Shown here: piece after piece, positions 1,239 to 14,873 of the stretch
Numbering within the stretch: the first letter of the stretch is position 1
Layout of the letters: each line of letters begins with the position of its first letter
NCBI GenBank assembly: GCA_019359075.1
Contig: JAHHIB010000030.1
Coordinates: forward strand, 1 to 64,000
DNA length: 64,000 bases
Source of the DNA: Kalymmatonema hyalinum WJT4-NPBG1
GTDB taxonomy: Bacteria > Cyanobacteriota > Cyanobacteriia > Cyanobacteriales > Nostocaceae
Direction: 5' to 3'
The notes under the pieces: generated by a model
What the model saw: only the letters and a program-made list of their open reading frames with translations
The model's database searches: none
Told to the model about the DNA's origin: nothing
Program-made: the position numbers and the translations under genes

Positions 1239-1874
1239 TCAACTAAAACTTTCCAACACTGTCAACAAACTCTTCAACATTAAATAGGAAGAAGTCGCCC
1301 CTGGATCTTGATGTCCCACGCTGCGTTCTCCTAAATAACTAGCCCGTCCTTTTTTAGCAAGCATCGGCGTAGTATCCTTCATCCCCTGTTCACCTGCTGC
1401 TACAGCTCGTTGCATCGCTTCCAATGTACTGTTTCCCTCACCTACAGCCTGCCCAAAAGCTGTGACAGCAGGAGATAGCGCATCAAGCATCGTCTTGTCG
1501 CCAAGTTGTGCTTTGCCACGCCCAAGCACACCATCTAACCCAGCTTGGAGTAGCCCTAGCATATCCTGCTCATTCAGTTCCTGTTTACCAGCTACGGCTG
1601 TACTTGCTCGCAGAAACAAAGTGCCATACAGAGGACCACTCGCACCGCCTATTGAGGAAATTAAAGTCATACTGACTGTTTTCAAAATGCTGCCAATATC
1701 CTTATCTGCAACAGTTGGTAACTGAGCGATCGCCTTTTTGAAACCGCGATCCATATTGATCCCGTGGTCAGCATCACCGATCGCCGCATCTAATTCTGTC
1801 AAATAGTCTTTATTCTGCTCTATCTCAGTTGCAAATGTTTGCAACCATTGCAATATCTGCTGTTTTGTCACCAT
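1239..1874 (-). CDS. dhaL: Dihydroxyacetone kinase subunit DhaL
   Basis: The 211-residue product is the nucleotide-binding, all-helical subunit of dihydroxyacetone kinase. It carries the acidic Mg/nucleotide motif 'IGDADHGINMDRG' (about residues 31-43), a 'GGASGPLYGTLF' loop (about residues 75-87) and the C-terminal 'RSVGHQDPGA' block. It starts 3 bases after dhaK ends, so the two are surely co-transcribed (dhaK first). In PTS-type enzymes DhaL holds ADP that is rephosphorylated by DhaM. No DhaM gene is seen here, so the phosphoryl donor may be ATP directly or a DhaM encoded elsewhere. Length is normal for the family. Confidence 0.93.
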   Translation of the reverse strand: MVTKQQILQWLQTFATEIEQNKDYLTELDAAIGDADHGINMDRGFKKAIAQLPTVADKDIGSILKTVSMTLISSIGGASGPLYGTLFLRASTAVAGKQELNEQDMLGLLQAGLDGVLGRGKAQLGDKTMLDALSPAVTAFGQAVGEGNSTLEAMQRAVAAGEQGMKDTTPMLAKKGRASYLGERSVGHQDPGATSSYLMLKSLLTVLESFS

Positions 1875-1877
1875 TTC

Positions 1878-2951
1878 TCAAACTCCCCACCGCAGACTCG
1901 GTGTCTTTACAGGCGCATCCCATAACCGAATCATCTCATCATCCAACTTCAACAGGGTAATCGAACAACCTTGCATATCCAAAGAAGTGATGTAAGGACC
2001 AATCAGGTTTCGCACAATTTGCAATCCCTTCTGTTCGCAGATTTCAGCCAGTTTACGGTAAACAATATAAAGTTCAGAAATAGGAGTACCACCCATGCTG
2101 TTGACGAAAGCCAGCAGCTTATCCCCCTTTTCAAAAGCGGGATCAATCAATTCCACATCCACCCATTCCCCTTTTTCTTCATCCCACTCCCGCACTGTAC
2201 GAGTGTAGGGCGCATCTTCAATAATCGATAGCGCCAGCATCTCAGTGATCTCGTCTGCTGATTTGAGAGTCATGCGATCGCGTCCTGGTTCACCGTGGAT
2301 ACCGATCCCCATTTCTATTTCCTGGTTTCCTAGTTTAAAGGTAGGCGTTCCTTTCGCGGGTACTGTACAGGAAGTCAGTGCGATCCCCAAGCTACGTCCA
2401 TTCAAATTCACGCGACGGCACAGATCTGCTATTCGCTGCAAATCATACCCTTGCTGTGCCGCAGCACCACAGATTTTTTCTGCTAGCACTGTTGTTCCCA
2501 CACCCCGCCGTCCTTGTGTATACAAGCTGTCCTTCACCGCTACATCGTCATCAATCAAAATACTTAGCACCCGGATACCTTCACTACGGGCTAACTCTGT
2601 TGCCATCTCAAAGTTCATGATATCGCCGCTGTAGTTCTTGACGATATAAAGGATACCAGCACCCCCATCGACTCTCTTAGCAGCTGACAGCATTTGGTCA
2701 GGGGTAGGAGAAGTGAAAACCTCTCCAGGACAAGCAGCATCTAGCATTCCCATCCCCACAAAGCCTGCGTGCATCGGTTCATGACCGCTACCACCACCAG
2801 AAATAATCGCTACTTTTCCTTGTACGGCTGCATCGGCTCGATAGACAAAGGCAGGGTCATAGTTGACTTTGATTAAATCGGCATGAGCCGCAGCCATACC
2901 TTGTAAACTTTCGCGAATAAAGTCTTCTGATTTATTAATAAGTTTTTTCAT
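1878..2951 (-). CDS. dhaK: Dihydroxyacetone kinase subunit DhaK
   Basis: The 357-residue product is the substrate-binding subunit of dihydroxyacetone kinase, converting dihydroxyacetone to its phosphate for entry into glycolysis. It shows '[17 protein letters not shown]' (about residues 50-66) and '[12 protein letters not shown]', whose His (about residue 219) is the residue that binds the carbonyl covalently. An in-frame TTG at 2957 would add two residues; I prefer the ATG at 2951, which begins the usual MKKLIN sequence. It is the first gene of a two-gene leftward unit with dhaL. There is no regulator next to it. Confidence 0.93.
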
Positions 2952-3580
2952 AGCCAAGTCACTTTTTATTAAGAGGTTCCTAAAACCAAGGATAAAGCAC
3001 CTTGCTGCTTTCTTGTTTCTGAGAGATGTGTAAAGTTAAGTAAAACTTAAGAAATATTGTTAATAAACATTGCAGGTAGTTGATCCCCTTGCTAGTGTAT
3101 GCAAAGTACAGTTGGTTCTGGTAGATACTTGTATCTAAAAGAGGTGTTATCCATGCTCTACGTAAATCTAGGCTTTTCACTGATTCACTGATTCTTTGAA
3201 TTATCAGCAAAGATATTTCTCCGACTGCTTTACACCAATTTTCCAGCAAGACGGCTCTTGAAATATCTTTATTGCTCCTTTTACGCTGAGGATTCATTCA
3301 GACGGTTGCTTACTTACTTCATTCTTACGTATTGCCAGTCCAACTCAAATCTTACTGAAGTCTGACTAAATACATACCCAAAGTTTGTCTACAAGCATGC
3401 GGTAAGACAAGCAAGATTTCTCATAAATTTCTGACTACGAACGGTTGAGTTCAATTCATACCCCAATCACGAGTCTCTTTCGTCTCACTCCACGCTAAGG
3501 ATGCACGCTTTGTTACAAAATCCTTCAACTTGGCATTGACGGGCTGGCACGATGAGACTTCAACTCTGGAGGTTTTAACT
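2952..3580. other. Gene-free divergent region between dhaK and the SDR gene
   Basis: About 630 bases between divergent genes. A 105-codon leftward frame (2980-3297) exists but has no recognisable domain and a composition unlike the neighbours, so I do not call it. The region should contain both promoters. No repeat or RNA gene was recognised. Confidence 0.4.
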
Positions 3581-5317: not shown

Positions 5318-5899
5318 CTATGACTTGCTATTTGATTGTGTTTGACTCGTGCCGTGCAGCTTAATAAAACTATCAAAGGCATACCAAGCCAACACATACC
5401 AAGGAATCGTTTCCAATTGCAATCCCCTAACAAGTAACTGCCGAATAGAAAAGATACCCAGTCCTAAAGGAAAAAGAACGCGCAAATCAACAACATTACT
5501 TGTCGCTTGTTGGACTTGCTTGTTCAAATCCACAACTGCATTGGAGACTCCTGCTGCTGCTTGGGACTTTCCTAGTGCGATATCACCGAAAATAATGCCT
5601 AAATCCCGCAGCGAGGCGAAAACATTATCCACACTTCCATTTTCACCATCATGATTTATGACAATGCTGCCATTCTGGATGTTAGTCCGCACCTGATTAA
5701 CATTTGGATTTGCTTGTAGCGCATTGGCAATCCGTTGCATTTCCCCAGATTGACGATGGGACGGTGCCACTCGCAAACGCAAGCGTCCTGGGGTAGAACT
5801 GACAACCCGCGTAGATATGGGTTTAAGTGCAGTTTTTATAGAGTTTTGATCAATAATTTTAGGCATCTGGGTGAGATTCATATAACCATTTTTTAACAC
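5318..5899 (-). CDS. HMA2-domain protein (single domain, C-terminal membrane segment)
   Basis: The 193-residue product is the last gene of the leftward metal cluster. Residues about 32-90 form an HMA2-type (heavy-metal-associated domain 2) unit. Its signature 'STPGRLRLRV' is followed by 'ANPNVNQVRTNIQNGSIVI', the ferredoxin-like pattern seen in all its neighbours. It lacks the CxxC of classical HMA domains. A hydrophobic segment near residues 140-175 ('LFPLGLGIFSI', 'WYVLAWYAF') may anchor it in a membrane. The start may be M1 or the Met at residue 7 or 12. Its role is unknown; context suggests a partner of the P-type ATPase. Confidence 0.7.
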   Translation of the reverse strand: MLKNGYMNLTQMPKIIDQNSIKTALKPISTRVVSSTPGRLRLRVAPSHRQSGEMQRIANALQANPNVNQVRTNIQNGSIVINHDGENGSVDNVFASLRDLGIIFGDIALGKSQAAAGVSNAVVDLNKQVQQATSNVVDLRVLFPLGLGIFSIRQLLVRGLQLETIPWYVLAWYAFDSFIKLHGTSQTQSNSKS

Positions 5900-5921
5900 T
5901 TAACTACCCTCCTAATTTAGG

Positions 5922-6000
5922 AATTCGTAATTTGTCATTGAGTAGAAAAACATGACGAATTACGAATTTCCTTGGATGTTCCCTGGCTGAACCAGGGAAC
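5922..6000. terminator. Two hairpins downstream of the DUF5132 gene
   Basis: GTTCCCTGG (5978-5986) pairs perfectly with CCAGGGAAC (5992-6000) around a 5-base loop, 17 bases after the DUF5132 stop. A second 17-bp near-perfect AT-rich inverted repeat lies at 5922-5938 and 5952-5968. Neither has a T-run, so they may be partial terminators or processing/attenuation signals between the DUF5132 gene and the last HMA2 gene. Confidence 0.4.
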
Positions 6001-6016
6001 AAGAAATGACTGGAAA

Positions 6017-6325
6017 TTACACACCGTTATCAGAAACATTGTCAGCAGAGGTACTTGCAACATCAACTGCTGGTAGCTGTCTTCCTTCAGCAAGTTCTGC
6101 TCTGGCTTCAGCTACAATGTCCTCCCAACTTTCACCAAGTTCTGCAGCGGCTCCCTTGCTTTTTTCATAGAGAGCAAGTCCACCTTTAATCAATGACTTG
6201 GTTATTGGTTTACCAATCCCAGCGACAACCGGAATCACGACCGGTGCTAAGAGTACTGCTCCAATACCGGCTATAATACCGGGTGCGCCAGCGTCTTCAA
6301 CGAAGTCAGTAATTTTAAATCCCAT
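6017..6325 (-). CDS. DUF5132 family small membrane protein
   Basis: The 102-residue product starts MGFKITDFVEDAGAPG and has a glycine/valine-rich hydrophobic segment at about residues 14-37 ('GIIAGIGAVLLAPVVIPVVAGIG'). An amphipathic, charged C-terminal half follows ('YEKSKGAAAELGESWEDIVAEARAEL'). This is the pattern of the DUF5132 family. A GGAGGA-type ribosome site lies just upstream of the ATG. It sits between the P-type ATPase and an HMA2 protein. Its function is not known; a one-span protein with a glycine-zipper-like helix could be a structural membrane component, which is inference. Confidence 0.75.
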   Translation of the reverse strand: MGFKITDFVEDAGAPGIIAGIGAVLLAPVVIPVVAGIGKPITKSLIKGGLALYEKSKGAAAELGESWEDIVAEARAELAEGRQLPAVDVASTSADNVSDNGV

Positions 6326-6396
6326 GACGATTTTCCTCCTGATGAACTGAAAAATTTTAGAAAGTCTACAATCCTACTATCGTTAGGACAGCTATC

Positions 6397-8655
6397 TCAT
6401 CCTACTGATGGTAGAGTTTTTTGTTTGCGGCTTTTGAGAATTGGGCGCAAACCATTGACTCCTGCAACAACTGTCGAACCATTGTTAACGACTGTTGCTG
6501 CTAGAGGGTTAAGACCAAACAAAACTGCTACTACTAATGCCCCTATATTAGGAACAGCGATCAGACTCGTGTTTTGCCGAATCAACTGCCTGGCTTTACG
6601 GGCAATTTCAATTGCCTCCAACAGACCATGCAAGTCATTCTGCATCAGCACTACGTCCGCAGTTTCGCGGGCAATTTCAGAACCGTTGGCGAACGAAACG
6701 GAAACATCAGCATAGGCTAAAGCTGGCGAATCGTTGATCCCATCGCCAACGAATGCAACTGTTTTGCCTTGTTCGTGCAGATCGCGGACAACTGTGGCTT
6801 TCTGCTCAGGAAAAGCTTCTGCGTGGGTATGCGTCGGATGAATTCCTAATTGAGCAGCAACAGCACTAGCAGTCCGCTTGTTATCCCCAGTCAGCATGTG
6901 GACTTCCACACCTTCGACTGTCAACAGCGCTGTGATAACTTCTCGACTTTCTGGACGCAGTATGTCACTGTACTCTATTCTACCTTGAAGTTGACCATTA
7001 CTCGCGACATAAATCAGTGATTTTGCCTCTTTTTGATGCCCATTGAGATTCATCTCAACGCCTTCTTGACGCAGATAGCGCTCGCTGCCTACGTAAACAG
7101 TCTCCCCATCAATTTCTGCTTTCACGCCCAAACCAAGTTGATAATCCCACTTGCTACGGGGCAGAACTTCGATTCCCTGGGTTTGGGCGTAGCGCACAAT
7201 TGCCTCTGCCACTGGGTGAGTTAGACGCTGTTCGGCAGCAGCAGCCAGTTCCAGCACTCGTGTTGTTGACGTTGCCGGATTAAGACTTTCGACACCAACA
7301 ACAGCCGCTTCACCTTGAGTCAGTGTGCCTGTCTTATCAAAGACAATGGTGTCAACTTCTGCTAGCTTTTCTAACGCTCGTCCGCTACGGATGAGAACAC
7401 CGCGCCGTGCTGCATAAGTCAGGGCTGCTAAAACCGTTGTCGGAACTGATACGCGAATACCAGTGGCAAAGTCTAGGGTCAGGACACTGGCTGCCCGTGC
7501 TGGGTTCCGGGTTACGGCAAATACTGCCCCACCAAGTAGCAATGTTGGCACGACAGCTTTTTGAGCAATGTTCAAGGCATAGTTTTCCATGCGGGTATCG
7601 TGGACGGGAGCTTCTTGCATTAACTTAATGCTCTGTCCAGCACAGGTGTCGTTACCTAGCCGTTCCGCCAAAATATAAATTCGTCCCTCGCGCATGAGGG
7701 TTGAGGCATAAACGGTTTGTCCCTTTTTCTTCAAAACCGGCATCGATTCACCGGTGAGTTTCTGCTCATCCAATAGGGCTTTACCTCGCAGGATCGTCCC
7801 ATCCACCGGCACTTGTTCGCCAGGGTAAACAATTACCGTATCCCCTCGCTGCACGTCCTGGATAGGAATTTGCACCTTTTCACCATCACGCTCAACCCAG
7901 ACGAACTGTCCGAGGGAACTCAGCAGATCCAGAGTTTGCTTAGCCGAAGAACGAGCCGTGCGATCGCGTATATTCTCCCCAACTTCAATTAAACTTAGCA
8001 TCAACGCAGGCGTGAGAAATTGACCTTGGACTGTGGTAATGGCGATCGCCATAAAATCCAGAAAGTCAATATTCAGTTTGCGGTCAACCCAGATCCCCTC
8101 CCAAGCTCGTTTGACAACCGGCAATGTGGCAAGGGCGATACTTCCCGCCACCATAACAGGCGGAATAGTCAATCCCAGCGGTCCACCCAACACAGCTAAA
8201 GCCGTAGCTATAGCCGAAAGTTGGATTCCAGGCCAAGATTTTTCTTCTGCATCTGACGCAGGTTGTGGCTTGGATTGTTTGAGAACGATGACTTCACTAG
8301 CTGCTTGGATCAAATAGCTCAGATGCGAACGTATCTTAGCATCTGAAACTTTGTTGGGTTGATAAGTGACTGTCAGTGACGCCGCCGCAGGCTTGATCCG
8401 AACACTTGTTACAAGGGAGTCAGCTTCCAACAACACTTGCAGGCGTTGTGCATAGTCCGCATCATAACGCAGACGAGGTACTCGCAACCTCATCCTTCCC
8501 GGGGTCGCATGCACAAGGCTGCATGGAACTTTGGGAGACTGAACCTGAGAGTGTCCATTCCTCTCAACTAAAGAACCCTTCCCATTTTTTGCCGCTACAG
8601 CGACTTCGGAAACATGACCTCGGGAGGGCGGTATTTGCACACTAAGTTCTGCCAT
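6397..8655 (-). CDS. P1B-type (heavy-metal) ATPase with N-terminal HMA2 domain, no CPx motif
   Basis: The 752-residue product is a metal-translocating P-type ATPase. Numbered from the chosen ATG: HMA2 domain about 48-100 ('HATPGRMRLRVPR'), TGES actuator loop 301-304, phosphorylated Asp of DKTGT at 440, HP nucleotide motif 480-481, GDGIND 637-642, and last helices with 'NNGSTVVAGVNGLRP'. The membrane motif that is usually CPC, CPH or SPC reads 'LDFATGIRVSVP' (about 394-405), so the ion-binding Cys residues are absent. The frame is open 61 codons further to 8838, but that part is repeat-rich; the ATG at 8655 has a purine-rich site ahead. Its metal is unknown. Confidence 0.88.
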   Translation of the reverse strand: MAELSVQIPPSRGHVSEVAVAAKNGKGSLVERNGHSQVQSPKVPCSLVHATPGRMRLRVPRLRYDADYAQRLQVLLEADSLVTSVRIKPAAASLTVTYQPNKVSDAKIRSHLSYLIQAASEVIVLKQSKPQPASDAEEKSWPGIQLSAIATALAVLGGPLGLTIPPVMVAGSIALATLPVVKRAWEGIWVDRKLNIDFLDFMAIAITTVQGQFLTPALMLSLIEVGENIRDRTARSSAKQTLDLLSSLGQFVWVERDGEKVQIPIQDVQRGDTVIVYPGEQVPVDGTILRGKALLDEQKLTGESMPVLKKKGQTVYASTLMREGRIYILAERLGNDTCAGQSIKLMQEAPVHDTRMENYALNIAQKAVVPTLLLGGAVFAVTRNPARAASVLTLDFATGIRVSVPTTVLAALTYAARRGVLIRSGRALEKLAEVDTIVFDKTGTLTQGEAAVVGVESLNPATSTTRVLELAAAAEQRLTHPVAEAIVRYAQTQGIEVLPRSKWDYQLGLGVKAEIDGETVYVGSERYLRQEGVEMNLNGHQKEAKSLIYVASNGQLQGRIEYSDILRPESREVITALLTVEGVEVHMLTGDNKRTASAVAAQLGIHPTHTHAEAFPEQKATVVRDLHEQGKTVAFVGDGINDSPALAYADVSVSFANGSEIARETADVVLMQNDLHGLLEAIEIARKARQLIRQNTSLIAVPNIGALVVAVLFGLNPLAATVVNNGSTVVAGVNGLRPILKSRKQKTLPSVG

Positions 8656-8769
8656 TTCTTCTTCTTCTCTCTCATACAAAAATTGTTCAAATTGAATTTT
8701 CAAAGCCTGCTGTGCAAGACACAGATAGGGTGCATTAAGGGGGTGGGGGTTGTAGGGGGACTTTAAAAC

Positions 8770-8945
8770 AGTGAACAGTGAACAGTACCAGCCGCAGTGA
8801 CGCCCTGGGGCTGGTGGGGGATTTAAACCCACCACCAACGCTTATGCCTACGGCACGTCTCTTGACGAACGGTGCTCTTGGTGGGGGACTTAAACATGCA
8901 AAGGATGAAACTGATAACTGATAACTGATAACTGGTAACTGTTAA
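8770..8945. repeat. Intergenic repeats incl. heptameric STRR (CTGATAA family)
   Basis: Between the ATPase gene and the upstream HMA2 gene lie 'GTGAACAGTGAACAGT' (about 8772) and an ACTGATA tandem run (8909-8944). They flank an imperfect palindrome with CCCACCACC and GGTGGGGG arms (about 8820-8890). Heptameric STRRs are typical of heterocystous cyanobacteria. The repeats separate two members of the metal cluster, so the ATPase gene may have its own promoter. Confidence 0.6.
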
Positions 8946-9008
8946 AGGTACCCTATTTCCTGACACCCATACATCCTACTTTCAAGCGACGGCTTGCCTA
9001 TCTTCTGG

Positions 9009-9929
9009 CTAATTTATGGCAACAACACTATCCCCAGCAGCAGATTGAATCAGACTGGATAGATATGATATGGCTTGTTCCAAAAGGCTCAAAGAACGCT
9101 TTTGGGAATTGAGCATTGCTCCAGACTTGTAGGTAATCACAATTGAGGCTGCCGCATTATTAACGCGATCGCCAGTGACGACAGGATCTGCTTTGAGCAA
9201 TGCCTCCAATCGTTGGACGTATTTTGAGTCTTTAGCTATTCGAGGCACGCGAAAACGCACTCGCCCTGGAATTGCATGAGCAATGCTATACGTCACTGTT
9301 GCTGGTTGCTTTACTGTTTGATGAGTTTTGGCAAGATCATGATTGGATTGATCTTGTGGGGTGGGCATCTGGTCCCCCCCTTTTAATTCCAATCCTAGGG
9401 ATACTCCCGCCCTCTCTAATTTGGATTGCAAGGATACTCCCATCCCAACTGATCGGGGATCAGACGAGACGCCCGCACTCACAGTTTCGTAACCATTCTC
9501 TTTTTCTTGTACAACGCTCTTACGAGTGGCTCTTTGAGATACAGAGGATGAAATCACTGGCTTTTCGGTTGCTGGCATTGTCTGTTCTGGGTTGCTGGCA
9601 GATTCAATCAGATTAGCCAAATACAGACGAATCTCAGAATCTGACATAATACCAGATTTGTAAGTAATGACAATAGACCCTGCCATGTAATTGATTTGCT
9701 GAGTAATTATCCAAGGCTCACAAGCGAGCAAATTCTGCAAGCGCTGCACATATTCTCGATCTTCGGATATCCGAGGAATGCAAAATCCTACTCTGGTTGG
9801 AAGTGCATGGGTAATGCTGTAATAAACCCCAGAGTGTGGCTTTGCTATTGGAGAATGAGTCTCTTCCTCTACTATTTCCTGAGACTTCTTACTTGAATAC
9901 AGTGTTAATTGCGATGTTGAACCAGCCAT
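9009..9929 (-). CDS. Protein with two HMA2 domains
   Basis: The 306-residue product has two HMA2-like units. The first is at about residues 36-92 ('HALPTRVGFCIPR ... GSIVITYKSG') and the second at about 213-270 ('HAIPGRVRFRVPR ... ASIVITYKSG'). A polar linker joins them ('EKPVISSSVSQ' to 'QDQSNHDLAKT'). In the first unit the conserved PGRxRxR has become PTRVGFC, so that copy may have lost its function. No membrane helix is seen. It overlaps the upstream HMA2 gene by 41 bases, which suggests translational coupling. It is probably a metal-binding or scaffold partner of the ATPase encoded next; this is inferred from context. Confidence 0.7.
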   Translation of the reverse strand: MAGSTSQLTLYSSKKSQEIVEEETHSPIAKPHSGVYYSITHALPTRVGFCIPRISEDREYVQRLQNLLACEPWIITQQINYMAGSIVITYKSGIMSDSEIRLYLANLIESASNPEQTMPATEKPVISSSVSQRATRKSVVQEKENGYETVSAGVSSDPRSVGMGVSLQSKLERAGVSLGLELKGGDQMPTPQDQSNHDLAKTHQTVKQPATVTYSIAHAIPGRVRFRVPRIAKDSKYVQRLEALLKADPVVTGDRVNNAAASIVITYKSGAMLNSQKRSLSLLEQAISYLSSLIQSAAGDSVVAIN

Positions 9930-11139
9930 TTTTGTCCTCCAATGTTCCTGAGTCGGGAACTGAGTCTAACGGAAAGTCCGCCAGAAACTTGAGAGCTGTA
10001 GAAAGAGCCGGAGTCTTGAAATCAGACCATACACTGGCTGTTTCGATTGGCTGCTGTTCTGCTGTTGTTGATCCCGCTGGTTCTACAAGCTGATTTGGTG
10101 GAAGCGGTTGCTCTGTTGTGTTTACAGGTGTTGTGTTTACAGGTGTTGTTTGAGGGATTGTTTTGTCAGCCAACTCCATCAAACCAACCCAATACGACAC
10201 TGGTATCTCACCTGCTTTGTGGGCGATCGCAATTGATGCGGCATCGCAATTCACACGCACGCTTGTCACTTTAGAATCGGTTTTCAGTAACCTTTCAAGT
10301 CGCCGCGCATAAGCGCGATCCCCGGCAACTCGCGGCACATTAAACCTGATACGTCCTGGAATGGCATGAACAACGCTATAAGCAATTTTTCCAGGCTGTG
10401 CTGCTACCTCGTTAACCTTGTCAACAACATTTGTTGACTTTTCAGTTTTGATGGGAAATGTTTGCTGCACTTTTGATAATGAAGCTTGGTCAGTTTTATT
10501 GGGTTTTATTTCCGAAGCTTTTTGAGAATTTTTCTTGATTTCTGATGCTGCAAATTGAGGCTTAAGAGAGTTAATCACCCGACGAGTTACATTTGCCGTA
10601 ATCATGTAAACCGGAATCGATGGCAAACCGCTGATTCCCAGTCCCCCAGTGACTGCTAGCCCCGTAAACATCGGAATAAACGAAATGCCCTGCTCCTTCC
10701 AAAAATCAGCAGATTTCCATGGGGCAAAGAGGTCTTGTTTGCTTTCTGCCTGAGGCGAAGCTGGCAATTGGTGTATGTCAAATTGCTGGAGTCTCTCCAA
10801 CATCTGGGGCAAGGACAGTTTATTTTCATCAAAGTTAACGACTAAACTGCCCGTTTGATCATTAACAGAGACTTCCCTGACCCCATCTTGCTTTCTTAAA
10901 TTTTCAGAGATAGTTTCAAGTATCGAGTTATGACTACCGTCAGTAGCACGGATTCGGACGCGCCCTGTCGTTGCATGAACAATATGCAATCCACCTACGG
11001 GTGGTTGCACTGTTGATTCTGCAACTGATTTGCTGGTAGTTTCACTTGATTCATCGCTTTGTTGCTGATCTGAGACTAAATCGACAAGCTTTTGCTCCCG
11101 AGGACTTAATCTCTCGCGACTACTGAGAGTTTTGGTCAT
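9889..11139 (-). CDS. Protein with two HMA2 domains and a central hydrophobic segment
   Basis: The 416-residue product is the first gene of the leftward metal cluster. The first HMA2-like unit is at about residues 52-117 ('HATTGRVRIRATDG ... GSLVVNFDEN'). A hydrophobic region follows at about 150-180 ('GISFIPMFTGLAVTGGLGISG', 'IPVYMITANV'), then a charged Lys/Ser linker and a second HMA2 unit at about 258-310 ('HAIPGRIRFNVPRV ... ASIAIAHKAG'). The C-terminus is proline/threonine-rich, with a short tandem 'TTPVNTTPVNTT'. The second unit closely matches that of the next gene, so the two arose by duplication. No enzymatic motif is seen; a metal-delivery or structural role is inferred. Confidence 0.68.
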   Translation of the reverse strand: MTKTLSSRERLSPREQKLVDLVSDQQQSDESSETTSKSVAESTVQPPVGGLHIVHATTGRVRIRATDGSHNSILETISENLRKQDGVREVSVNDQTGSLVVNFDENKLSLPQMLERLQQFDIHQLPASPQAESKQDLFAPWKSADFWKEQGISFIPMFTGLAVTGGLGISGLPSIPVYMITANVTRRVINSLKPQFAASEIKKNSQKASEIKPNKTDQASLSKVQQTFPIKTEKSTNVVDKVNEVAAQPGKIAYSVVHAIPGRIRFNVPRVAGDRAYARRLERLLKTDSKVTSVRVNCDAASIAIAHKAGEIPVSYWVGLMELADKTIPQTTPVNTTPVNTTEQPLPPNQLVEPAGSTTAEQQPIETASVWSDFKTPALSTALKFLADFPLDSVPDSGTLEDKNGWFNIAINTVFK

Positions 11140-11233: not shown

Positions 11234-11767
11234 TTAAGTGTTGTTAATCACTCTTTTCTGATATTCTTGCTCTGTGACCATGTCCAGAGTACTTTCTAGC
11301 TTATCTAAAAAGACGATACCGTCGAGATGGTCATACTCGTGTTGAAAGATACGAGCTACAAAATCAGTAAATTCTTGCTTTTGTAGTTTACCATTTCGGT
11401 CTGTATATTCTACTTCAATTGCTTGGAATCTGGGAACTAATCCTCTAATCCCAGGAATAGACAAACAACCTTCCCAACCTTTAACTATCTCCGTTGAAGA
11501 AGCAATGATTTTGGGATTAATCATTGCAGTGGGTTCCATTTCCGGAGCGTTGGGATACCTGGGATTCGGGCGAGAGGCAACGATAAATAAACGATAGGAT
11601 TGGGCAACTTGAGGTGCAGCAATACCAACACCGTTAGCCTGAGCAACTGTCGCCATTAAGTCGTCAATCAGTTTTTGAATACGTTCATCACTGACATTTT
11701 CTACCAGTGTAGCTTTTTGGCGCAGTATCGGATCGCCTAACTGGATTATTGGTAGCAATTCACCCAT
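11234..11767 (-). CDS. def: Peptide deformylase
   Basis: The 177-residue product removes the formyl group from the N-terminal methionine of new proteins. All three family motifs are present: 'GVGIAAPQV' (about residues 47-55), 'EGCLSIPG' with the metal-ligand Cys (about 98-105) and 'QHEYDHLDG' with two metal-ligand His and the catalytic Glu (about 141-149). Length is normal. It is a stand-alone leftward gene. A MITE has inserted immediately upstream of the start codon (11784-12000), so its native promoter has been pushed away or replaced. Confidence 0.95.
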   Translation of the reverse strand: MGELLPIIQLGDPILRQKATLVENVSDERIQKLIDDLMATVAQANGVGIAAPQVAQSYRLFIVASRPNPRYPNAPEMEPTAMINPKIIASSTEIVKGWEGCLSIPGIRGLVPRFQAIEVEYTDRNGKLQKQEFTDFVARIFQHEYDHLDGIVFLDKLESTLDMVTEQEYQKRVINNT

Positions 11768-12061: not shown

Positions 12062-12098
12062 TTTAATTCATAATTCATACTTCATAATTTATAATTTA
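12062..12098. repeat. Short tandem repeat of the AATTCATA type
   Basis: A run of AATTCATA-like units overlaps the stop codon end of the HtrA gene. A similar run lies at 16518-16560. These are common intergenic STRR-like sequences of filamentous cyanobacteria. Confidence 0.5.
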
Positions 12099-13322
12099 GC
12101 TTCCACGCTTAACAGGTAAAGGTGCAGGTTTAACTGCTATTTGTGTTGTTTGTCCATTGCGTAATACTTGTAATTTTACAGGAAAACCAATTTTACTATT
12201 TTCGACTATTTTTTGTACTTCTTCTATTTTAGAGACTGACTGGTTTTCAATGCTTTGAATCACATCACCTTGTTTGAGCCCAGCGGAGGCTGCTGGAGAA
12301 CGCGGCACAACATCAACTAACAAAACTCCCTTATCTGTTGCCAAATTAATCCCTAATCTAGACTTAACTTTTTCCTTAACTTCTGAATTCAAAGTTACCA
12401 TTTGAATACCTAAATAAGGATGTTCAACTCTACCTTTTGCTATTAATTCCTGAGCAATCTTCTGTGCCGTACTAATAGGAATAGCAAATCCCAAGCCTTG
12501 AGCGCCGCGAATGATTGCAGTATTCATAGCGATGACATCTCCACGAGCATTCAGCAGTGGTCCCCCAGAGTTACCAGGATTAATAGCAGCATCGGTTTGA
12601 ATGAAATCAACACGCTTGTCAGTAGCACCGATGTCACTGCTAGAACGACCTATAGCGCTGATAATGCCAGATGTAACAGTATAATCCAAACCAAGAGGAT
12701 TACCAATAGCAATCACCGCTTCTCCTGGTTGCAAAACTTCAGAGTTACCCAAAGAAACAGTTGGCAAGTTATTTGCTTCTATTTTAATCACAGCAACATC
12801 CGTAACCGGGTCTTCACCCATGACACGTCCGTCAAAAGAGCGACCATCTTTGAGTTTCACCTTGACAATCTCAGCACCGTTCACCACATGGGAATTCGTC
12901 AAAATTTGACCGCCGGAGTTAATAATGAACCCAGAACCGCTACCTTGTTCTACTCTTTCTCTAGGTTGCGAGCCAAAAAACCGCTGGAAAAATGGATCGT
13001 CAAAATCTTCGGGTACCCGAGAAACTACTGTCCTAGAAGCATCAATGCGAACAACTGCAGGTCCGACTTTTTGGACAACTCCAACAACGAAGTTAGGATT
13101 ATTAGACGATGGGACGATGGACACATTTGTGGAGGTGGTATCAATTGTCCTTTTGACGGGTGTTTGAAGCTGAGCATCTGATTTTCCCGCATCCAGGGTA
13201 CCAGCAGGTATAGAACAACCCCCAATAGACATCACTGCTACACTACTTAGGAGTATGACCAGATGGGGCAAACGCCCTGCAACAATATCTTTAGGCTGAA
13301 AATCATGGTCTTTTGTCTTCAT
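12096..13322 (-). CDS. HtrA/DegP-family serine protease with one PDZ domain, lipoprotein-like
   Basis: The 408-residue product is a trypsin-like protease of the HhoA/HhoB/HtrA type. Its N-terminus carries a hydrophobic stretch ending in 'MSIGGCSIP', a good lipobox, so it is probably membrane-tethered on the outer face. The catalytic triad is seen as His in 'LTNSHVVNG', Asp in 'VTDVAVIKI' and Ser in '[11 protein letters not shown]'. A single PDZ domain occupies about residues 300-395 ('[10 protein letters not shown]', '[14 protein letters not shown]'). It is divergently oriented to dnaA. Cyanobacteria usually have three such proteases, and I cannot say which this is. Confidence 0.9.
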
Positions 13323-13496: not shown

Positions 13497-14873
13497 ATGG
13501 AAATGCCCATAGAAAATCTGTGGAGTCAGGTACTAGAGCGCTTACAATTAGAGCTATCCCGTCCCACCTTTGAAACTTGGATTAAAACTGCGAATGCAGA
13601 GCAATTTGAAAATAATTGCTTGGTGATTTGCACTCCCAACCCGTTTGCTCGTAATTGGTTACAGAAATATTACATAAAAACGATCGCTAATGTCGTACAA
13701 GATATTCTTGGTTATCCGGTAGAGATTTATATAACTGTTACCAATGATGAATCTCCTGTCAGTGAACAAGAAGTTTCTTGGGGATTCCCGGATCAAACCA
13801 GTATTCCAGAAACACTTCCTCAAAACCGACTAAAAACTCCAGAATTAAACCCCAAGTATGTTTTCTCCCGATTCGTAGTCGGTGCTAACAATCGTATGGC
13901 TCACGCTGCTTCGTTAGCAGTTGCTGAGTATCCTGGTAGAGAGTTTAACCCCTTATTTTTGTGTGGTGGCGTTGGTTTGGGAAAAACTCACCTCATGCAG
14001 GCGATCGGTCACTATCGATTGGAAATTTGTCCCGATTCAAGAATCTTTTACGTCTCTACTGAGCAATTTACGAATGATTTAATTACCGCTATCCGTAAGG
14101 ACAGTATGCAAAGTTTCCGCGAGCATTACCGCGCTGCTGATGTCCTTTTAGTGGATGATATTCAATTTATCGAGGGTAAGGAATATACCCAAGAAGAATT
14201 TTTCCATACTTTTAATACTTTACATGAAGCAGGCAAGCAAGTCGTCTTAGCTTCTGACCGCCCTCCCAACCAAATTCCTCAGTTGCAAGAGCGTCTGTGT
14301 TCTCGATTTTCTATGGGGTTAATTGCTGATATTCAAGCGCCCGATTTAGAAACGAGAATGGCGATTTTACAAAAAAAAGCTGAGTATGAAAATATTCGTC
14401 TCCCCAGGGATGTCGTTGAGTATATTGCTTCTCACTACACTTCTAATATTCGAGAGTTGGAAGGAGCATTGATTCGAGCGCTAGCGTATATTTCTATTTG
14501 GGGTCTACCCATGACGGTGGAAAATCTTGCACCCATTTTAGAACCTCCAACACACAAGGGAGAAGCCACACCAGAAGGAATTTTAACAGTGATAGCTGAA
14601 GCTTTTGATGTACCAATAGAAGACCTCAAAGGGAATTCACGGCGACGAGAGATTAGCTGGGCACGTCAAATCGCAATGTATCTCATGCGGAAACACACGG
14701 ATCTGAGTTTGCCTAGAATAGGAGAAGAATTTGGTGGGAAAGACCATACAACGGTGATGTACAGCTGTGAAAAAATTACTCAACTGCGAGAAACAGATCA
14801 AAATTTGGCACAAACGCTGCGCCAATTGAGCGATCGCATTAACATGGCTAGCCGTCCCAAAAAATCATATTGA
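13497..14873 (+). CDS. dnaA: Chromosomal replication initiator DnaA
   Basis: The 458-residue product has all four DnaA domains: an N-terminal DnaB-contacting domain ('[10 protein letters not shown]', residues about 5-80), a short linker, and an AAA+ domain with Walker A '[15 protein letters not shown]' and Walker B 'LLVDDIQF'. The C-terminal DNA-binding domain holds the '[14 protein letters not shown]' signature. A second ATG two codons later (13503) is an alternative start. It lies just upstream of a dense cluster of DnaA boxes and dnaN, the classic dnaA-oriC-dnaN order. It overlaps nothing and diverges from the HtrA gene. Confidence 0.97.

Follow-up and report, generated by a model that had tools for sequence, protein, structure and literature searches.

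A CxxC-free HMA_2 and DUF5132 operon with a P1B-6-like ATPase in cyanobacteria: a candidate iron-handling pump and membrane assembly kit

Background

What is the task of a cyanobacterial P1B-type ATPase whose N-terminal domain, like the domains of several proteins encoded next to it, belongs to the HMA_2 family and lacks the CxxC motif, and what does the small DUF5132 protein contribute? The question is raised by a five-gene operon at positions 5318-11139 of a 64,000-nucleotide (nt) stretch of the Kalymmatonema hyalinum WJT4-NPBG1 genome (assembly GCA_019359075.1, contig JAHHIB010000030.1, positions 1 to 64,000; hereafter, the window), which an earlier note on this DNA had singled out as a candidate metal or organelle system. 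Here, we describe a computational analysis in which the ATPase groups with P1B-6-like pumps, the DUF5132 gene is found directly downstream of nearly all close relatives of the ATPase, and iron genes adjoin a number of related loci. With slightly better than even confidence, we read the operon as encoding an iron-handling P1B-6-like pump together with an assembly kit akin to PacL and Fez proteins, in which the HMA_2 units would serve as interaction tags.

Ferrosome (fez) systems occur in Rhodopseudomonas palustris, Desulfovibrio magneticus, and Clostridioides difficile; an R-x8-TGRVR motif of Fez proteins would, if confirmed, equal the HMA_2 motif. According to the sources cited here, FezA is needed together with FezB in C. 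difficile and the ferrosome system is repressed by Fur (PMC12574912), FezC is a DUF4405-like cytochrome (PMC10979944), and PacL self-associates via the glycines of its span and binds pump N-terminal domains via Glu/Ala repeats (PMC13043812). It is further reported that DUF6110 proteins, which are related to PacL, are encoded with P1B6 pumps, that HN in transmembrane helix 6 (TM6) is a P1B-6 criterion (both PMC9374683), and that PacL-linked pumps export Zn and Cd (PMC9374683, PMC13043812). A literature search, with subscription papers largely outside it, found no paper mentioning DUF5132, nothing for P1B-ATPase, FeoB, and cyanobacteria combined, and, judging by titles, no paper on a ferrosome system in cyanobacteria.

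Gene content of the operon and its HMA_2 units

The five genes are as follows.
9889..11139, minus strand: P1, 416 amino acids (aa); HMA_2, 64 bits in two stretches (Pfam), units at 10813-10989 and 10204-10377
9009..9929, minus strand: P2, 306 aa; HMA_2, 59 bits in two stretches (Pfam), units at 9582-9818 (degenerate) and 9114-9287
6397..8655, minus strand: P1B-type ATPase with an N-terminal HMA_2 unit at 8299-8517; the open reading frame (ORF) opens at 8838
6017..6325, minus strand: DUF5132 protein, 102 aa; PF17195, 63.6 bits (Pfam; above the family cut-off of 25 bits)
5318..5899, minus strand: P5, 193 aa, an HMA_2 domain followed by helices; PF19991, 46.8 bits over model positions 9-150

The end of P1 overlaps P2 by 41 nt, and gaps of 71 and 117 nt precede the DUF5132 and P5 genes, respectively. 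HMA_2 (PF19991) has two matches in each of P1 and P2 and a single one in the ATPase and in P5, so that the six units on one strand described in the earlier note stand, with the correction that they are spread over four genes and not five, the fifth being the gene of DUF5132, which the note had rightly described as a glycine-rich, one-span companion. P1, P2, and P5 all exceed the HMA_2 cut-off of 30 bits, which lies between the scores of the ATPase in two scans (29.2 and 31.8 bits). Across the genome, eight HMA_2 matches were detected at E-values up to 0.001, six of them within these 5.8 kb and two on contig C17, and the clustering is therefore not due to chance.

As the note had stated, CxxC is absent from all five proteins, in which PF00403 (metal-binding HMA) was matched only below its cut-off; it is likewise absent from the 194 distinct HMA_2 units of the fetched loci (0/150 cyanobacterial, 0/42 from non-cyanobacterial pump loci, and 0/2 from a Microvirga plasmid). 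Of these units, 129 cyanobacterial ones, 34 from non-cyanobacterial pump loci, and both from the plasmid contain GRxR. The longer motif HAxPGRxRxRxPR, ascribed in the note to every unit, varies within the operon, being degenerate in the first unit of P2 (THALPTRVGFCIPR) and replaced by SSTPGRLRLRV in P5.

P1 consists of two HMA_2 units flanking a helical hairpin that, judging from the sequence, is probably membrane-embedded; in its AlphaFold model, block means of the predicted local distance difference test score (pLDDT) are 89-97 across both units, with a helix pair at residues 144-209. The helices after the HMA_2 domain of P5 probably form a membrane hairpin as well. The P5 model has a mean pLDDT of 64.6, with a ferredoxin-like unit at residues 28-104, below the values of the P1 units. 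Compared with the PDB, both models matched many HMA domains (MerP, CopZ, and ATP7B domains), none at an E-value of 0.001 or below; P5 and MerP (1osd) gave a template modeling score of 0.68 by target length (E = 0.0077), and the match of lowest E-value for P5 was RNA polymerase subunit L. Shared ancestry of the P1 and P5 hairpins with the first two transmembrane helices of the ATPase appeared plausible by eye and failed profile comparison (probabilities 1.0 and 0.3 against the ATPase helices, 2.6 for P1 against P5).

HMA_2 units are also carried by other kinds of membrane proteins. They are N-terminal on P2-type ATPases in mapped loci L112 (41.9 bits), L110, and L278 (29.2 and 26.7 bits, both under the cut-off) and likewise N-terminal on PAP2 phosphatases in L009 of the Kalymmatonema genome itself (31.2 bits) and in L114 (29.5 bits, just under the cut-off); in Gloeothece, a pump remnant without the phosphorylation motif adjoins DUF5132. 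Given so many partners and no metal-binding cysteines, an assembly tag fits these units better than a metal carrier.

The PAP2 fusions lie at L009:10106-11239 (contig C17) and L114:13493-14566, each closely preceded by a single-HMA_2 protein. The P2-type (Ca-type) ATPases lie at L110:3214-6950, L112:3505-7276, and L278:7033-11034, with a DUF5132 protein bearing a P5-like tail upstream (by Pfam in L110 and L278, by our own profile in L112) and S-adenosylmethionine synthetase downstream (by Pfam in L110 and L278, the same cluster in L112). Pseudo-pumps that resemble much of the ATPase and lack DKTG were seen at L126:9813-11381 (Gloeothece plasmid) and L280:12691-14781, their HMA_2 unit being recognized by Pfam in L126 and by our own profile only in L280.

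Phylogeny and motifs of the ATPase

Translation of the ATPase probably starts from the ATG at 8655 and not from the TTG at 8838, because the alignments of most close relatives begin only at query residue 42-62; the two matches that extend further upstream (G005 and G058) contain stop codons. The phosphorylation, TGES, HP, and GDGIND motifs are all intact, and by these motifs the pump is catalytically intact. Two transmembrane motifs distinguish it.
7438..7476, minus strand: motif LDFATGIRVSVPT of transmembrane helix 4 (TM4), with F-A-T at the position of C-P-C in CopA (alignments)
6472..6489, minus strand: TM6 motif VNNGST, NN as against HN in FezB-like, DUF1490-linked, and Feo-linked ATPases

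FezB-like pumps mostly have DYSCALKL or DYACPVKL in TM4 and HN in TM6, the usual Y(S/A)C motif being absent from the ATPase of the window; DUF1490-linked pumps combine CPC in TM4 with HN in TM6. HN is present in all members of the Feo-linked sister clade for which TM6 is covered.

In a FastTree analysis of 81 sequences, the clade of the window and its relatives is sister to the FezB-like clade, with CopA and ZntA apart; the next groups outward are the DUF1490-linked pumps and a Priestia pump, the pairing of these two being unsupported. IQ-TREE (60 rows, overlapping sequences) joins the clade of the window and its relatives to the FezB-like ATPases, away from CopA, with a Shimodaira-Hasegawa-like approximate likelihood ratio test (SH-aLRT) value of 98, and within cyanobacteria the clade of the window (99) joins, at 96, a 22-row clade (98) in which 14 rows are labeled Feo-linked. 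Both trees, in which the FezB-like and DUF1490-linked references are uncharacterized, thus place the ATPase with P1B-6-like pumps and not with CopA or ZntA; the Cu/Zn references were CopA, ZntA, and their kin, and the set held no characterized Co or Mn pump. The contig scan kept its best 80 loci, with R. palustris, S. putrefaciens, D. magneticus, and C. difficile not among them. Export of Cu, Zn, or Cd was set aside as the principal explanation on these trees and motifs.

In three further HMA_2 ATPases (L096:6050-8284, L097:5104-7323, and L098:6222-8387), the Glu of TGES is replaced (TGAS, TGSS, and TGLS, respectively), which would be expected to disturb dephosphorylation.

Iron genes near related ATPases

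In a survey of 145 genomes of the same family, FeoB_C was found in 48. Among the ATPase-bearing genomes, 11 of 40 FeoB matches have an HMA_2-type ATPase no more than 10 kb away, against about 0.26 expected under uniform placement, an estimate that ignores kinship, the 11 cases coming from eight genera. These cases include ten of the 24 ATPases of the second type (54-61% identity). Two members of the clade of the window also have FeoB at the locus: in L111, it directly precedes P1, followed by the ATPase, DUF5132, and P5; in L151 (Tolypothrix), the N-terminal part of FeoB follows P5, and the next stretch of the frame is interrupted.

Outside the family, 29 genomes carry DUF5132, and loci from 17 of them, chiefly the ones matched more strongly, were mapped. 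The ATPase is present in 13 of these loci, with Feo genes in nine (counting one FeoB fragment and one case in which about 4.4 kb separate FeoB from DUF5132) and none in the mapped stretches of the other four. The run FeoA-FeoA-FeoB-ferritin-FeoC-HMA_2-ATPase-DUF5132 in L103, within the family, and the run FeoA-FeoB-FeoC-ferritin-HMA_2-ATPase in L275, outside it, are hard to read as anything other than iron genes; in L275, FeoB, ferritin, and HMA_2 (29.3 bits, just under the cut-off) were called by Pfam, and FeoA and FeoC by similarity. A non-cyanobacterial FezB-like locus, L137, reads ATPase-FeoA-FeoA-FeoB-FeoC (by similarity).

DUF2202 proteins, which we take to be ferritin-like, are encoded inside Feo/HMA_2/ATPase operons at L269:10071-10664 and L277:10541-10900, and DUF2202 is annotated likewise beside an Arcobacter FezB-like pump.

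Conservation of the locus

Among the family genomes, DUF5132 and HMA_2 were each detected in 101 and an ATPase match (E-value of 1e-140 or better) in 85; phylum-wide, DUF5132 was found in 45 of 292 genomes. Among the listed ATPase matches, 78 reach at least 68% identity (from 77 genomes, two being halves of one gene); for 77 of these, DUF5132 lies directly downstream, on the same strand and within 1.5 kb, the single miss being a partial match. By the same rule, DUF5132 is downstream of at least 3 of 61 less similar ATPase matches, and it lies upstream instead in some of the latter (L101 and L102). The combination that the earlier note regarded as fatal to its proposal, an ATPase inside a characterized metal clade with HMA2 genes that are not conserved next to it, was not encountered: the ATPase stands apart from CopA, ZntA, and their kin, and the HMA2 genes are conserved beside it.

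We mapped 47 loci, chosen rather than randomly drawn, with counts limited to the fetched stretches. Thirty-one are of the type of the window, 18 with and 13 without the ATPase, and share the order dnaA, htrA, def, P1, [P2], [ATPase], DUF5132, P5, dhaK, dhaL, brackets marking genes that may be missing. The ATPase-bearing loci encode P5 in 18/18, DUF5132 in 18/18 (in two, seen only in the full ORF list), P1 in 17/18, and P2 in 7/18.

Loci without the pump

DUF5132 and P5 are kept in all 13 loci lacking the ATPase, and P1 in eight; def is upstream in 12 of them (4.9 kb away in L086), and L085 has in common with its counterparts only a downstream neighbor. Genome G081, from which one of these loci comes, encodes a second-type ATPase at another site. 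The other 12, together with G028, which was not mapped, were searched with the ATPase as query at E-values up to 1e-40. The top hit per genome shows 34-36% identity and begins no earlier than query residue 273; all 39 listed matches fall within 30-38% identity and none starts before residue 226, and therefore none covers the HMA_2 N-terminus. The 13 best-match proteins all have CPC, CxxC within the first 200 residues, and no GRxR within the first 150. Because several of the genomes are drafts, an unassembled pump is possible. Mapped onto a P5 tree, ATPase presence requires at least six changes, two of which strongly supported branches make unavoidable; together, the pump-less loci and this tree point to DUF5132 plus P5 as the minimal unit, with the pump optional.

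DUF5132 as a candidate scaffold

By sequence, the DUF5132 protein has a single Gly-rich span followed by a Glu/Ala-rich helix and contains no His and no Cys. Read from the alignment, this is the layout of PacL: one span with conserved glycines, a Glu/Ala-rich cytosolic part, and a gene beside that of a P1B ATPase. A profile trained on 63 DUF5132 proteins from outside the test loci was compared with all ORFs of 26 non-cyanobacterial loci (mean 64 ORFs each; one was dropped, no pump start being found). The ORF directly before the pump ranked first in 14 of 25 loci; in seven, the top ORF was elsewhere, namely, a small protein of the operon or pump neighborhood in six and a FeoB in L143. The DUF5132 model of Pfam itself reached E-values of 0.0045 and 0.031 on pump-adjacent small proteins, and HHalign gave probabilities of 93.9 and 81.8 between DUF5132 and two sets of such proteins. 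Conversely, Pfam searched with the DUF5132 protein of the window at E-values up to 10 returned nothing but DUF5132, with DUF1490 not found, and comparison of a DUF5132 profile with solved structures gave no credible match (best E-value 0.22).

On this basis, the tie of DUF5132 to the small proteins beside FezB-like pumps appears supported but not strong, and that to PacL is one of layout. For the DUF5132 proteins of L110 and L278, the C-terminal part of the HMA_2 model is also matched (at 20.9 and 25.4 bits, each short of the cut-off), and P5 is matched at 1e-25 and 1e-20; these fusions provide evidence for DUF5132 and P5 working together.

Interpretation and alternative explanations

Under the explanation toward which we lean, the operon would encode a P1B-6-like pump plus a membrane assembly kit. 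The HMA_2 units, with the ferredoxin-like fold kept, the cysteines gone, and the TPGRxRxR motif present, would be tags linking the pump and its partners. DUF5132 would be a one-span scaffold like the small proteins beside FezB-like pumps, self-associating through its Gly-rich span and binding HMA_2 domains through its Glu/Ala helix, as has been reported of PacL and mycobacterial pump N-terminal domains; with P1, P2, and P5, more HMA_2 tags would be placed on membrane anchors, giving rise to a cluster. The pump would most likely remove Fe(II) from the cytosol, either to detoxify or to store it, and the membrane crossed would be the plasma membrane, that of the thylakoid, or a dedicated one. We infer Fe(II) as the substrate of this pump, the direction of transport, the physical clustering, and the role of the Arg motif. 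If this reading is right, DUF5132 gains a testable role as a pump scaffold, assemblies of the PacL/Fez kind extend to cyanobacteria, organisms of very high iron demand, and the proposed job of Cys-less TPGRxRxR HMA domains is addressing and assembly, not metal binding; the pump-less natural variants would offer existing controls with which to tell scaffold and transport functions apart.

Several observations weigh against this interpretation. The genome of the window has no FeoB_C match and the locus itself no iron gene, and a Fur-box-like site, sought with one consensus and up to three mismatches, has no match in the window. The clade of the window and the related L276 carry NN, and not HN, in TM6, and the FezB-like references owe their placement solely to sequence and operon content. 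The neighbors of a third clade of cyanobacterial ATPases include a putative Mn exporter (Mntp-family) and Na_Ca_ex exchangers, with no Feo gene in the mapped stretches; the substrate may therefore differ between clades. As for the scaffold, six of the 14 top-ranked ORFs are at E < 0.05 and the others at 0.48 to 8.9, no ORF reached an E-value of 10 in 4 of the 25 loci, and shared composition may add to the profile score. The two sets of small proteins used with HHalign were selected manually, in part by means of that profile, and only the soluble helix is aligned (35 and 54 columns); the probability against three PacL sequences is just 13.7. Finally, 12 mapped genomes (11 with def upstream) keep the kit with no HMA_2-type pump detected in the search described above, and therefore serving such a pump is not its sole role there.

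Somewhat unlikely, in our estimate, is that the same pump-and-scaffold architecture handles Mn(II) or another divalent ion, as an exporter cluster similar to the mycobacterial zinc/cadmium platforms. The Cys-less TM4 leaves the substrate open, the genome lacks a FeoB_C match, the third clade clusters with the Mntp-family protein, Na_Ca_ex, and DUF1345, and relatives linked to PacL export Zn and Cd, according to the sources cited above; against these points stand the links of the direct sister clade to Feo genes and ferritin, and FeoB beside two members of the clade of the window itself, the third clade being more distant. The resemblance to PacL-Ctp systems (DUF1490 and DUF6110) comprises the one-span protein with glycines in the span, the Glu/Ala-rich cytosolic helix, and the P1B6-like ATPase alongside, and, in alignment, two DUF1490-linked loci on plasmids encode ATPases with an HMA_2-like GRxR N-terminus. 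However, the window encodes DUF5132 and not DUF1490, without a C-terminal metal-binding motif, its TM4 has FAT in place of CPC, and it has extra HMA_2 proteins. A true ferrosome-type system, in which these proteins build a membrane-bounded iron store filled by the pump, is less probable still, and we consider it unlikely. The ferrosome-like lead of the earlier note survives, with support for a connection to pumps of the P1B-6 type, to iron genes, and to small proteins resembling DUF5132: the FezB-like loci of this analysis, as distinct from characterized ones, combine a P1B-6-type pump with GRxR HMA_2 proteins and small Gly-rich one-span proteins, some with iron genes nearby, and the kit kept without the pump suggests a structural role. 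Yet the ATPase is sister to the FezB-like clade and not within it, with another TM4 and TM6, DUF5132 stands where those loci encode a YtxH-like small protein, a scan of seven proteins (five of the operon and two flanking) gave none of the DUF4405/FezC type, and the Fez-like sequences compared are uncharacterized.

That the HMA_2 units are true metallochaperone domains, binding iron or another hard metal through His, Asp, or backbone ligands and handing it to the pump, is highly improbable. They share a predicted ferredoxin-like fold with classical HMA domains (MerP, CopZ, and the N-termini of CopA and ZiaA), and a His precedes the motif in many of them (by a loose pattern, 80 of the 150 cyanobacterial units and 32 of the remaining 42); nevertheless, Ser replaces that His in 32 of 32 aligned P5 proteins, the motif GRxR stands in place of CxxC, its conserved Gly and Arg are poor metal ligands, and such units also occur on PAP2 phosphatases. 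Possible, though doubtful, is a broader version of the tag model, in which HMA_2 and DUF5132 would be a general kit, independent of any pump, by which proteins of cyanobacterial membranes are addressed and clustered, with P1B-6-like and P2-type pumps, a PAP2 lipid-phosphatase-like enzyme, and dead pseudo-pumps joining one iron-linked platform or compartment, a platform that would have outlived the pump in several lineages.

Neighboring genes and other observations

The genes flanking the operon recur at the mapped loci of its type.
11234..11767, minus strand: def, peptide deformylase, 94 nt upstream of P1 (Pfam); def-family gene in 26 of the 31 loci
12096..13322, minus strand: HtrA-type protease (Trypsin_2 and PDZ_2), upstream; in 24 of the 31
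13497..14873, plus strand: dnaA, a landmark of the conserved site (Pfam); in 20 of the 31
1239..2957, minus strand: dhaL and dhaK (Dak2 and Dak1 domains), downstream (Pfam); dhaL in 14 and dhaK in 17 of the 31

PADLOC reported nothing at E-values up to 0.001, and promoter-like and terminator-like sites showed no excess over the shuffle level. Tandem pairs of HMA_2 ATPases, one partner with GEGIND in place of GDGIND, were seen in L093, L094, and L095, in clusters with DUF1345-, Mntp-, and Usp-type genes and, in L093 and L095, also Na_Ca_ex (names by Pfam from L095 and by clustering for the others). Outside cyanobacteria, DUF5132-like ORFs occur in unannotated stretches of the Microvirga plasmid pMVF16-1 (L124), which also holds two HMA_2 units, and of a Sinorhizobium chiapasense plasmid (L125).

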